64,000 nt of DNA from Bacteroidota bacterium (GTDB taxonomy: Bacteria > Bacteroidota > Bacteroidia > B-17B0 > Aurantibacillaceae), in the NCBI GenBank assembly GCA_021156365.1, contig JAJNDK010000009.1, positions 1 through 64,000 of the forward strand, read 5' to 3'. Positions 107 to 51,605 of the stretch are shown piece after piece. The notes below the pieces were generated by a model. The model saw only the letters and a list, made by a program, of their open reading frames with translations. It ran no database searches and was not told the origin of the DNA. The translations under genes were made by a program, and so were the position numbers. Each line of letters starts with the position of its first letter. Positions within the stretch are counted from its first letter, which is position 1.

Positions 107-828
107 GAGTTCGATTGACTGAAACCTGAGTTCGATTAACTGAAACTCGAGTTCGATTGATTGAAACTCAAGTTCGATTAACTGAAACTTGAGTTCGATT
201 GATTGAAACTCAAGTTCGATTGACTGGAACTCGAGTTCGATTAACTGAAACTCGAGTTCGATTGATTGAAACTCAAGTTCGATTGACTGGAACTTGAGTT
301 CGATTAACTGAAACTCGAGTTCGGTTGATTGAAACTCAAGTTCGATTGACTGAAACTCGAGTTCGATTAACTGAAACTTGAGTTCGATTGACTGAAACTC
401 AAGTTCGATTGACTGGAACTTGAGTTCGATTAACTGAAACTCGAGTTCGATTGACTGAAACTCAAGTTCGATTGATTGAAACTCAAGTTCGATTGACTGG
501 AACTTGAGTTTGATTGATTGAAACTTGAGTTCGATTGCATGAAACCTGAGTTTGATTGATTGAAACTCGAGTTCGATTGCATGAAACCTGAGTTTGATTG
601 ATTGAAACTCGAGTTCGATTGACTGGAACTCGAGTTCGATTGACTGGAACTTGAGTTTGATTGATTGAAACTCGAGTTCGATTACATGAAACTTGAGTTT
701 GATTGATTGAAACTCGAGTTCGATTGCATGAAACCTGAGCTCGATTGACTGGAACTGAAGTTAAAGTGCCTGGAACTAAGGGTCGAATGCATGGATCTGA
801 AATTGAATGAATAGAACCTGAGTTTGAT
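107..828. repeat. 21-bp tandem array, 34 units plus a partial one
   Basis: Thirty-four head-to-tail units of exactly 21 bp start at 107, and a 35th partial unit starts at 821. No insertion or deletion occurs between units; they differ only by substitutions. The unit begins GAGTTCGATT and ends GAAACTC, so its ends (GAGTT/AACTC) are inverted repeats. Copies 2-19 tend to repeat in groups of three, copies 20-30 in groups of two, and copies 31-34 are eroded. The plus strand has stops in every frame across the array. No canonical gene covers positions 1-989. The function is unknown; this is a minisatellite, not CRISPR, because no unique spacers occur. Confidence 0.95.
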
Positions 829-47893: not shown

Positions 47894-48517
47894 ATGAAAA
47901 CGATTTTATTTGTACTGGCATTGCTTTACACCGGCTTGATCCTTGGACAGGAAAATGATACCTGGCCTTTTTACGTTTACAAAACGGAAGCCGATTTTTT
48001 TGCCGGTAAAAGAACGGTGCTCTGCATGCACACAGGATCCTCGACTTCATCGGGCCACGTCTTTAAATTTAAGGATGAGAAAAAGAAGAGATTTAAAGTT
48101 TCCCTCCCGGATTCCGCCTTCTTCGGATACGACAATGCAGGATTAAAAAAAATGCGCATACCTTCCATAGATAAAATATTTAAAATGAGCTACTATTCAT
48201 TCCTGGGCGGGAATAAAGATTATTTTATTATAAGCAAAGGCCAGGAAGGCAGCTACAGTTTTGACGAAGAAGGATATGTAACGGCATGGATTCCTTTCAT
48301 GTATAACGGCTGGGCTATATCATTCACCTATTTCGATAAAAAAAGGAACCTGGAAAATGTGACCATTGAAGAAATACTTGCGTTCGATCCTGAGCTGAAA
48401 GCAAAGTACGATACAGAGACCGCGGGCACCGACAAAAAAGCATTCAAGGCCGCCAAGCACCTAATCGACGTGAAGTACTTCAAAGAATATATGAAAAGGC
48501 AAATGAAGACACAATAG
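47894..48517 (+). CDS. Exported protein of unknown function
   Basis: About 207 residues from the ATG at 47894, where a signal peptide begins (MKTILFVLALLYTGLILGQ). The mature part is soluble, Lys- and aromatic-rich (PFYVYKTEADFFAGKRTV, YFIISKGQEGSYSF) without a known domain. It starts one base after the upstream gene stop, so the two exported proteins are cotranslated. A remnant of the E1 gene lies directly after its stop. Confidence 0.65.
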   Translation: MKTILFVLALLYTGLILGQENDTWPFYVYKTEADFFAGKRTVLCMHTGSSTSSGHVFKFKDEKKKRFKVSLPDSAFFGYDNAGLKKMRIPSIDKIFKMSYYSFLGGNKDYFIISKGQEGSYSFDEEGYVTAWIPFMYNGWAISFTYFDKKRNLENVTIEEILAFDPELKAKYDTETAGTDKKAFKAAKHLIDVKYFKEYMKRQMKTQ

Positions 48518-48518
48518 C

Positions 48519-48605
48519 ACTGAATGCCGAACCCCGGGAAAGCCATGCTGTCGAAGGTGGAGAAAGTGCTTGGGTATTGAGAGCGACTCCCCATAGCTAT
48601 CAGGA
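48519..48605 (+). pseudogene. Remnant of the E1 gene 3' end and palindrome
   Basis: This piece matches 44782-44888: the codons around AMLSKVEKVLGY stop resemble the true C-terminus of the E1 protein (AMLPNAEKVEKVLGEVLGY stop), and a degenerate copy of the palindrome follows. About 20 bp are missing inside. It indicates a duplication, or a block insertion between direct repeats. Confidence 0.75.
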
Positions 48606-48674
48606 TCGCAAAAAAGTGGCGCTTATCCTGCTAAATTGGGAGTATAAGCGAAGCTTTATGGCGAGTATACAATA

Positions 48675-48683
48675 GTTAGCGGT
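48675..48683 (+). repeat. Cassette boundary 1 (GTTAGCGGT)
   Basis: The left end of the first putative cassette. Its reverse complement, ACCGCTAAC, stands at the cassette's right end (49349-49357). Upstream imperfect pairing (CGCTTAT / ATAAGCG) may be the rest of an attC-like site. Confidence 0.5.
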
Positions 48684-48744
48684 CAGGTTATGACAACAGC
48701 GAACTCAAAATAGCCTTTTGACAAATAACGTAAAGACAAAAAAA

Positions 48745-49356
48745 ATGAGAAAATTTCTAACGCTAAAACATTGGCAACTATTCGGACTTTTAATGGGACT
48801 TCCAATGGTATTTCAATTCATCACAATTGGTTCAGTTATTTCAAGTAACGACCCGACAACTATGTTTTACTTTTTTCCAATTATGATGATATTTTTCATT
48901 GGACTTTTCTTTGGTTGGTTCTATGCACTTGGGACAAACCTTCATAAAAAACTTCCACCGACAGCGACAATGAATTTGACACGTTTCAAAATATTTCTTC
49001 TTATTCCAGTAGTGTATATGCTACTTATTTCTGTTTTTATGGCAGGTACGTTTGCCAACATTTCAACAGGCGAACAACCTAACCCAGCAATTTTCGGAAT
49101 AATAGTTCCACTACATTTATTTTCAATGTTCTGTATTTTTTATTGTTTATACTTTAACGCAAAAGCATTAAAGACAGTAGAATGGCAAAAACCGGTGACA
49201 TTTAGTGACTTTGCAGGTGAGTTTTTCTTGATTTGGTTTTTCCCAATAGGAATTTGGATTATACAGCCAAGAATAAATAAACTCTTTGACACAACGACTA
49301 CAACTTACTTGACAGCAATATTCAATAGCTTGACGAAAAAAAGCCCGAACCGCTAA
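48745..49356 (+). CDS. Polytopic membrane protein (cassette 1)
   Basis: About 203 residues from the ATG at 48745. Five hydrophobic segments are visible (about 15-35, 45-67, 85-107, 120-142 and 158-178). AT-rich composition differs from the neighbouring GC-balanced genes. The TAA stop (49354-49356) lies inside ACCGCTAAC, the right inverted repeat of the cassette. No family is recognised. It has no visible terminator of its own and is followed by an imperfect palindrome. Confidence 0.7.
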   Translation: MRKFLTLKHWQLFGLLMGLPMVFQFITIGSVISSNDPTTMFYFFPIMMIFFIGLFFGWFYALGTNLHKKLPPTATMNLTRFKIFLLIPVVYMLLISVFMAGTFANISTGEQPNPAIFGIIVPLHLFSMFCIFYCLYFNAKALKTVEWQKPVTFSDFAGEFFLIWFFPIGIWIIQPRINKLFDTTTTTYLTAIFNSLTKKSPNR

Positions 49357-49485
49357 CATCGGTTTGGCAATATGGCGGCTGATGTGCAAAATTCAAGTTC
49401 AGTTCTTCTATTGAACTTTTGTACAAAACTCAACTTTTGTGCTTCGATTTCCGCCACAGCGCAAGCCCGTAAAACGACGTTATAA
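49351..49485 (+). repeat. attC-like imperfect palindrome 1
   Basis: It begins CGCTAAC and ends GTTATAA. The arms pair imperfectly (GGTTTGGC ... TGGCGG on the left with CCGCCA ... GCAAGCC on the right), with bulged bases and a variable middle. The layout matches a cassette-recombination site. Confidence 0.55.
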
Positions 49486-49503
49486 GACATTTAAAACAAT
49501 AAC

Positions 49504-50403
49504 ATGTATTTAAGAAAATTATTTACTCTCCTAATCTCAAGTTGTGTGCTGATATCATGTCAATTTAACCAATCTGTAAATAAAGACCTCGTGACAGGAG
49601 CATATACAAGAGGTGATGGAGTTGGCTCTGACGACGTTGTAATAAAAATTAATGGGAAAGTCGATACCCGAACTAAATTTGTTTATGGTGAAAAGGTAGA
49701 GTTTCAATTTCCTAACATTGCTGGTCTCACGAAAGAAAACGGTAAGTTTTTCCCTGCAATGTCAATGTCTATTATTAAAAATGGAAAAGATACTGTGTAC
49801 AATCAACAAGAATTATTGACAGAAATTGAAAATGGCACAGATCTATCTCCATTGACAGTGCAGTCGGAGTTTTTTGCTACTTTGCCATTTGAAAATAATG
49901 AGACATATAAAGCTTTAATTAAAATTAAAGATAAAAAGGGAAAAGGGACGTTTGAATATGAATTACCATTTACTGTTCAAAAAAACAACTTGATCAGCGT
50001 AAAACCTACAAACCTTACATACTCAAAAATCTATCTTTGGGACGAGACCGACAAAATAATCATGGCCAACAAAAATATAAATACAGATCACCTCTACGTT
50101 CTAATATTTGAAGGAGTTGATGGATTTGTAAAAACAAACACTATTTGTTATCCTGCTCTTTCAACAGATATTATTGATAGCAAAGGCAATCCAATATTAT
50201 CGAAAGCTAATGTTTTTGAATCTTATAAAGACAGCGGGGTATCATACGAAAAAATTAAAGACCAAAAGATAACTGTCGAGTTAAAATTTGGATCTGGAGT
50301 TATAAATAATCCGTGTAAATTTAAAGCCTCACTTACTGATTTAAAATCAAATAATAGGATTGACGTGGAAGCTGATTTAGAATTCCTTTCTTACGCTCAT
50401 TAG
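49504..50403 (+). CDS. AT-rich lipoprotein (cassette 2)
   Basis: A 299-residue lipoprotein (lipobox LISC, Cys19). The body is rich in beta strands and lysine with no named domain (e.g. VVIKINGKVDTRTKFVYGEKVEFQF). Its composition is visibly AT-rich against the flanking genome. Its borders are GTTATAAGAC at 49479 and GTCTTATAAC at 50415, a 10-bp perfect inverted repeat. The stop codon lies 11 bp before the right repeat. Confidence 0.7.
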   Translation: MYLRKLFTLLISSCVLISCQFNQSVNKDLVTGAYTRGDGVGSDDVVIKINGKVDTRTKFVYGEKVEFQFPNIAGLTKENGKFFPAMSMSIIKNGKDTVYNQQELLTEIENGTDLSPLTVQSEFFATLPFENNETYKALIKIKDKKGKGTFEYELPFTVQKNNLISVKPTNLTYSKIYLWDETDKIIMANKNINTDHLYVLIFEGVDGFVKTNTICYPALSTDIIDSKGNPILSKANVFESYKDSGVSYEKIKDQKITVELKFGSGVINNPCKFKASLTDLKSNNRIDVEADLEFLSYAH

Positions 50404-50414
50404 GACAGCAAAAC

Positions 50415-50510
50415 GTCTTATAACAGAAGCTTAGCGCTCAGGTGCCAAAAATACGTTATCTTTTAGACAGCGGTAAAGGCGCCCGAACGCCAAGCTGCAA
50501 GCCGTTAGAT
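50415..50510 (+). repeat. attC-like imperfect palindrome 2
   Basis: It runs from GTCTTATAAC to GTTAGAT. The arms AGCTTAGCG ... GGTGCC and GGCGCC ... CGCCAAGCT pair over most positions with bulges, around a variable central loop, again like an attC site. Confidence 0.6.
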
Positions 50511-50559
50511 GTAAAACGAATCACCTTTAAGAAACAAACCGACTAAATAAAAACATATT

Positions 50560-51204
50560 ATGACAAGATTTACGTTACTTCTAATTTTGATTGGGCTATA
50601 CTCATGTGGTCATAAAGTACTTACGCCGGACAACAAAATCCAAAGGTTTGATAACGAATGGACAAAAGGAGCAAAGATTCGAAATGATTTTGATTCTACT
50701 ATGCAAGAGTTTCTAAAATCAATAAAGGACTCAGCTATCAGGGAGGCTTGGAAAACCGACATTAACGATTATACTTATCAGTCAACCGTTTTATTTGAAC
50801 ACTTAAGTGACATTGGGACAATACTCAAGGTTCAAGCTGATACAGTTTCATGGCACACAGCTGATACATTGCGTCCTCTTTTCATGAAACATCGTGACGA
50901 AACAGATAATACGACCGCACTTTTATCTCATGGACTAAATACAGTTATTCATGAGCATCTAACATGGTTTGACGGTGTCTTTGGAGATTCCCTGTATTTT
51001 TATAACACAAAAAAACAAATTCCCCTGCAACATAACAATAAACTTTTAGAATATTGGATTGAGGAACGGTCAAATATAAAGACACCTATTGATTTTGAGG
51101 TCTTTCAACTAAATATCCGTCAAAAATCATTCATTGTTTTAGACAGTATGCTAATGAGCTGCAAGCGGACATATAACAATGATCAATCCAAACAAACTAA
51201 ATAG
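50560..51204 (+). CDS. AT-rich lipoprotein (cassette 3)
   Basis: A 214-residue lipoprotein: lipobox YSC at Cys16. The body is helical and charged (e.g. NEWTKGAKIRNDFDSTMQEF) with no known domain. The start of the cassette is GTTAGATGT (50504); a near match to its complement, ACATATAAC, stands at 51169-51177, inside the last codons. The reading frame continues a little further into foreign sequence, so the original C-terminus may have been altered. A broken chrA gene follows. Confidence 0.7.
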   Translation: MTRFTLLLILIGLYSCGHKVLTPDNKIQRFDNEWTKGAKIRNDFDSTMQEFLKSIKDSAIREAWKTDINDYTYQSTVLFEHLSDIGTILKVQADTVSWHTADTLRPLFMKHRDETDNTTALLSHGLNTVIHEHLTWFDGVFGDSLYFYNTKKQIPLQHNNKLLEYWIEERSNIKTPIDFEVFQLNIRQKSFIVLDSMLMSCKRTYNNDQSKQTK

Positions 51205-51206
51205 AC

Positions 51207-51534
51207 ACTCTGGCAATCCTGCAAGGAACCGGCATATTAACAGCGACAAATACAAAATTGTTTCTGACCTTCTTAAAAATCGGTTCCGTTCTTTACGGCA
51301 GCGGTTCGTTTTGTTCGCATTCCTCGACAGCGAATTGGTTTCACAAGGTCTTTTAACCCGGGTAAAGACATCATTGCTGACTGGCGGACAATTGTAATTG
51401 CGTTGACGAGCATCATCGTGACATTTGCATTTAAAAAGGTTAACAGCGTTTTTATTGTAATTGGCGGTTCGATCCTGAGCTACCTGGAGCAACCAATTTC
51501 TTTCATCGACCGTATTTCGATGCATAATTGTTAA
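51207..51534 (+). pseudogene. chrA: Broken chromate transporter gene
   Basis: Three frames in a row encode ChrA-like pieces: TLAILQGTGILTA ... FLKIGSVLYGSG (from 51207), then FVLFAFLDSELVSQGLLTR after a one-base loss near 51305, then ADWRTIVIALTSII ... NSVFIVIGGSILSYL in the third frame to a TAA at 51532-51534. About 90 residues are missing between the second and third pieces. No start is present. It is a decayed CHR-domain gene, not functional. Confidence 0.75.
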
Positions 51535-51605
51535 ATAAAGGCATATATTTATTGTTTATCAATAAATATGTTTATGTTTGCAGCATAATCATAATAGCAA
51601 TTATC

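Follow-up and report, generated by a model that had tools for sequence, protein, structure and literature searches.

The integron integrase IntI is defined by a unique additional domain, the I2 region (PMC9668308, PMC7790495), and both I2 and single-strand recombination are held to occur in IntI only (PMC7790495). Integrons have been reported as rare in Bacteroidota; the work on IntegronFinder 2.0 gives Salinibacter ruber as a species with a complete integron (PMC9024848). We analysed a 64-kb stretch of DNA from a Bacteroidota bacterium (hereafter the window) in which an initial annotation had proposed integron-like gene cassettes. Very probably, positions 48615-51204 are what is left, without the integrase, of an integron-like system of Bacteroidota that is run by an integrase other than IntI; they comprise an attI-like site, two complete cassettes and a third without attC. 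We found no published description of this array system in the literature; preprints and subscription journals may hold one.

The plus-strand ORF region at 48675-51204 has a G+C content of 33-38%, against about 42-48% in the DNA around it, and 48675-50514 comprises two complete cassettes with two attC-like sites. Cassette 1 opens with the core GTTAGCGGT (48675-48683, plus strand), the exact reverse complement over 9 bp of ACCGCTAAC at 49349-49357. This pair frames ORF1 (48748..49356, plus), a hydrophobic protein of 202 aa from its ATG whose stop codon lies within the right core ACCGCTAAC, as had been noted before. Cassette 2 is bounded by a different inverted repeat, exact over 10 bp, GTTATAAGAC (49479-49488, plus) and GTCTTATAAC (50416-50425), which frames ORF2 (49504..50403, plus), a putative lipoprotein of 299 aa. 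The initial annotation had described three genes framed in this way; the first two pairs stand and the third does not. ORF3, the third cassette gene (50560..51204, plus), encodes a putative lipoprotein of 214 aa and lacks a right attC. Its candidate right repeat, ACATATAAC (51169..51177, plus), was rejected as the cassette end because it is an 8/9 match inside ORF3, of a quality that occurs in 12% of shuffles, and has no attC behind it: the best score for an attC-like site after ORF3 is 4.6 bits. The match is probably due to chance, or else decayed.

None of the three ORFs has a Pfam match. Homologues of ORF1 are scattered over 14 other genomes among the 247 in the class (best 57%), ORF2 has a single clear homologue (44%, in G020) in 87 genomes of the order, and ORF3 has none in 246 other genomes of the class. 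The ORF1 homologue in G274 perhaps lies within a cassette, and the other homologues of the three genes are in no clear cassette. Orthologous loci that always keep the three genes together in the same order had been named beforehand as evidence against cassettes; the three were not found together elsewhere. An empty-site comparison at the window could demonstrate no cassette gain or loss, as no homologue of the flanking gene turned up among 40 relatives. At the left end of the window (165-700) lies a series of similar palindromic repeats, apparently unrelated to the cassettes.

Are the spacers attC-like, as first suggested? Site 1 runs from R'' ACCGCTAAC to R' GTTATAAGAC (49347..49489, plus) and site 2 from R'' GTCTTATAAC to R' GTTAGATGT (50414..50514, plus). 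In a scan of the 64-kb window with covariance model R1, trained solely on other sites with these two left out, they scored 84.3 bits (E 1.8e-16) and 35.9 bits (E 5.4e-6), respectively. The window qualifies as a CALIN (at least two attC and no integrase nearby) if its attC-like sites are taken as attC. Once circularised, cassettes 1 and 2 form hairpins with z-scores of -3.2 to -3.6 against shuffles, except for the top strand of site 2 (-1.9), and the bottom strand of circularised site 2 folds better than the top. The linear spacers folded alone do no better than shuffles, the bottom strand of site 2 giving a weak z of -1.6. An Rfam search of 48400-51600 gave no match, nor did an exact 24-base pattern from site 1 in the genome contigs. 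BLAST of spacer 1 against 60 relatives returned matches down to 5e-25, many of them clustered and some on another contig of the window's genome, in which further arrays or sites occur on contigs C23 (about a dozen), C9 and C20. Near its start, contig C20 also carries a pair of neighbouring tyrosine recombinase genes together with a third gene (L059, G000:C20, 1100-2800), perhaps a multi-recombinase mobile element.

Directly before cassette 1, and without an integrase gene beside it, lies an attI-like site ending in AGTATAAGCGAAGCTTTATGGCGAGTATACAATA|GTT (48615..48677, plus), which the initial annotation had overlooked. A PSSM built from 19 attI-like sequences adjoining integrase genes ranked its GTT (48675) first of 2192 GTT positions, with a score of 17.7 against 5.1 for the next best. 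In relatives, the sequence between the integrase stop codon and the first cassette is conserved and ends TATA-rich before the GTT; the closest relative of the window's attI, by eye, is that of G002, from the same genus. No integrase match was found in the 64-kb window. Elsewhere in the genome, where a search for one had been advised, a 3' remnant turned up: contig C4 encodes the C-terminal 58 residues of an array-type integrase, with 88% identity to L105, and behind this fragment come an attI-like site and a cassette. A complete integrase of the array-linked family was not found in the genome (assembly 98.67% complete), and an IntI search there returned XerD-like proteins only.

Relatives carry long one-way arrays of window-type sites. 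The consensus has a start core GTT(A/G)-NNN-G(C/T) and an end core (A/G)C-NNN-(T/C)AAC, with a stem of about 20 bp and a variable centre between them; a core departing from the classic GTTRRRY had been recognised at the outset and takes the form GTTR-NNN-GY. Over 263 kb, the array strand bears 122 sites and the other strand 2, compared with 0.75 in dinucleotide shuffles. In 67 of 77 successive cassettes (shuffled mean 7.3), the NNN of the start core is complementary to that at the cassette's own end, while the two ends within a site match in 4 of 77; a second, independent set, from around named genomes, gave 49 and 3 of 65. Pairing of a cassette start with its own end and not with its neighbour, first read from the window, recurs in these arrays, as one would expect if the functional site arises once the cassette has been excised as a circle. 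The sites are imperfect palindromes, and the variable part of their R''/R' boxes is specific to the cassette. A search of other Bacteroidota for the core with different genes had also been advised; sites at E <= 0.001 are present in 195 of 395 Bacteroidota genomes, with only 8 candidates scored per genome.

Folds without a stem had been named as a second sign against attC sites; what we found was covarying stems. Over 74 sites, 82.8% of cells are paired, compared with 51.5% after shuffling. The covariation score in the same sites is 0.689, against 0.168 when shuffled and near 0.1 in slid controls. Since the training sites were chosen by palindrome score, part of this pairing and covariation is selected for. 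The BLAST-found sites and the strand bias are free of that selection. At one position pair of the stem, a mismatch of A with C is conserved in 59 of the 74 sites; on the bottom strand it would become a wobble pair. Together with a second position pair that is T.G in 29 of 74, it makes the two strands differ.

The view of an attC cluster lacking an integrase fits the window, with its two sites, and does not extend to relatives, which do have an integrase, though not IntI. Searches with IntI profiles led to this family of tyrosine recombinases beside the arrays. Of the sites around 64 integrase loci, 89 are downstream on the integrase strand and 5 upstream in divergent orientation, with 0 downstream on the opposite strand and 0 upstream on the same strand; sites are present in 28 of the 64 loci, and in many of the others the contig ends just past the integrase. 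The usual arrangement has the array downstream on the integrase strand, with attI about 100 bp after the gene. In the divergent subtype (G028:C2, G006, G003, G012, G014, Kaistella and Parapedobacter), attI lies upstream of the gene. Site-bearing integrase loci occur in named genomes of Flavobacterium, Algoriphagus, Brumimicrobium, Pedobacter, Lutibacter and Fusibacter, and site-bearing genomes include Flavobacterium psychrophilum, F. difficile, Algoriphagus ornithinivorans and Brumimicrobium aurantiacum. Fusibacter sp. 3D3, which is not a member of Bacteroidota, also possesses this type of integrase, and about ten sites lie downstream of it (L186, 11372-18600).

The array-linked integrases are about 360-420 aa long, and the catalytic R, K, HxxR, H and Y are invariant. 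In an alignment with IntI1 and two other IntI, all of them lack the IntI-specific insert (the I2 region around patch III); they are extended at the N-terminus by a domain of about 75 residues that bears the motif WSxTxKxWY, and they end in an IntI-like SPLD/SPFD motif. The best PDB fold match of a predicted structure (pLDDT 85) is the Vibrio integron integrase 2A3V. Against TIGR02249, whose curated integron-integrase cut-off is 265 bits, they score 187-202 bits, and an IntI over the cut-off occurs in 1 of 61 family genomes (G024, 443 bits; L065, G024:C26). In the tree, IntI forms its own clade (100/100) outside the array-linked family, which is also separate from the genome's own XerD; at the base, alternative placements of the array-linked group, IntI and Xer have AU p values of 0.30-0.43. 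Lacking the IntI insert and falling under the curated cut-off, the system is not counted as an IntI-family integron, although it is integron-like in its working.

Two natural cases bear on how the arrays change. G006 and G028 share, at 99.6% identity, a platform of 6195 bp that consists of small unknown genes and the integrase (L062 from 3283; L051 12403-18595). As these genomes belong to different genera, the platform itself has moved recently. The identity stops exactly at ...GCGTATAATAAAGA-GTTA, the attI core, where two different first cassettes start, each pairing with its own end. The conserved site and this break at the core mark the attI beside the integrase as the entry point for cassettes. 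In the other case, a multi-gene unit of 2.9 kb with an NhaA-like gene, whose limits are precisely GTT and AAC, is common to G012 and G028 at 99.5% identity (L049 12737-15635 and L040 8245-11143, minus strand in both), and the flanking hairpins differ on both sides. Movement of a unit without its hairpins is not expected from canonical cassette movement and counts against the integron-like reading.

How might such a system work? In related genomes, its parts are a tyrosine recombinase with an extra N-terminal domain, an attI, and an array in which each cassette has an attC-like site at its end. On the cassette circle the hairpin would re-form, with the R''/R' box pairing perfectly, and the integrase would join the circle to attI or to another attC at the G|TT core. 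Cassettes could in this way be captured, lost and reshuffled. We infer that recombination proceeds through a folded single strand and that the array-linked integrase is the catalyst. The cassettes of the window presumably entered via an integrase of the same type, since lost from the neighbourhood.

Several other explanations deserve consideration. That the array-linked recombinase acts on double-stranded cores in the manner of Xer/pdif, with the hairpin serving another role (terminator, synapsis or cruciform), strikes us as unlikely. Like Xer proteins, the integrase has no I2 insert, the insert that is said to be needed for single-strand recombination; this and the shared unit that moved without its hairpins speak for the Xer-like reading and against the integron-like one. 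Yet the variable NNN matches the opposite end of its own cassette, a pairing of consequence only where the circularised site folds, and the stem has been kept through compensatory change. Less probable still is a classical CALIN, whose ordinary attC cassettes would owe their movement to a canonical IntI that acted in trans or has since disappeared. The cassette logic would be the same, G024 has a real IntI, and a few Bacteroidota, Salinibacter ruber among them, do have genuine integrons (PMC9024848). Against this stand the scarcity of IntI over the cut-off among the family genomes, the dozens of loci in which arrays adjoin a recombinase other than IntI, and the integrase remnant in the window's own genome, which belongs to the non-IntI family.

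We give almost no weight to the idea that dispersed repeats or terminators stand by chance between horizontally acquired genes. The genes are indeed AT-rich and foreign-looking, and the linear spacers fold no better than shuffles, but the strand bias of 122:2, the own-end pairing, the attI, the linkage to the integrase and the identity break at the core already contradict it. Within the preferred reading of an integron-like remnant, we regard it as moderately probable that Bacteroidota harbour a separate integron lineage in which an I2-less integrase, possibly aided by its N-terminal domain, recombines folded attC-like hairpins. If so, single-strand cassette recombination is older than I2 or has arisen twice. 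A natural I2-less integrase beside hairpin arrays makes the account that reserves I2 and single-strand recombination for IntI directly testable. Moreover, about half of the sampled Bacteroidota species have attC-like sites, in contrast to the rarity of integrons in surveys.

The array system also hints at the origin of the "xerD-tet(X3)" resistance module. Outside Bacteroidota, the most numerous plasmid relatives of the array-linked integrase are TnpF/XerD proteins directly upstream of tet(X3), and the TnpF of Acinetobacter plasmids is 50% identical to it. Papers on xerD-tet(X3) call the recombinase XerD and name no integron (PMC7494873, PMC11194056). On these plasmids (L123, FJ012881, 6052-8175; L127), an integrase fragment and the resistance gene precede a stretch that corresponds to the left part of an attC-like site; over 69 bp it shares 84% identity with a site in a Bacteroidota array (E 7e-16). 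Since the start core ahead of tet(X3) fails to pair with the one behind the gene, the module is not a single intact cassette. The tpnF/xerD-tet(X3) module looks like a truncated Bacteroidota integron.

How does the system compare with those already described? In a pdif/Xer module, a gene lies between short 28-bp XerC/XerD sites; here the flanks are hairpin sites of 100-190 bp with a cassette-specific core. The array-linked enzyme resembles XerC/XerD as a tyrosine recombinase without the I2 insert, and plasmid copies are annotated as XerD, but it differs in its tie to arrays of hairpin sites, its SPLD/SPFD end and its length. The best-scoring family model is NCBIfam NF040815 (XerA-type, "site-specific tyrosine recombinase/integron integrase"), whose cut-off L105 passes; two other array integrases fall under it, however, the XerD of the genome comes close in score, and this broad model covers the SAM-like and catalytic parts only and says nothing on attC arrays. 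The tet(X3) module of Acinetobacter plasmids departs from the arrays in its shortened integrase gene and its partial site. From integrons (IntI/attI/attC, including CALIN), the system differs in the missing insert and added N-terminal domain of its integrase, in a core pairing of 9-10 bp rather than 7, in a distance from R boxes to stem of about 1 nt rather than 5-6 nt, and in an integrase and array mostly on the same strand, although the divergent subtype exists. With integrons it shares the integrase gene, the attI-like site, a one-way array of mostly single-gene units, and hairpin sites with R''/R' boxes and a GTT core in which the start of each cassette pairs with its own end.
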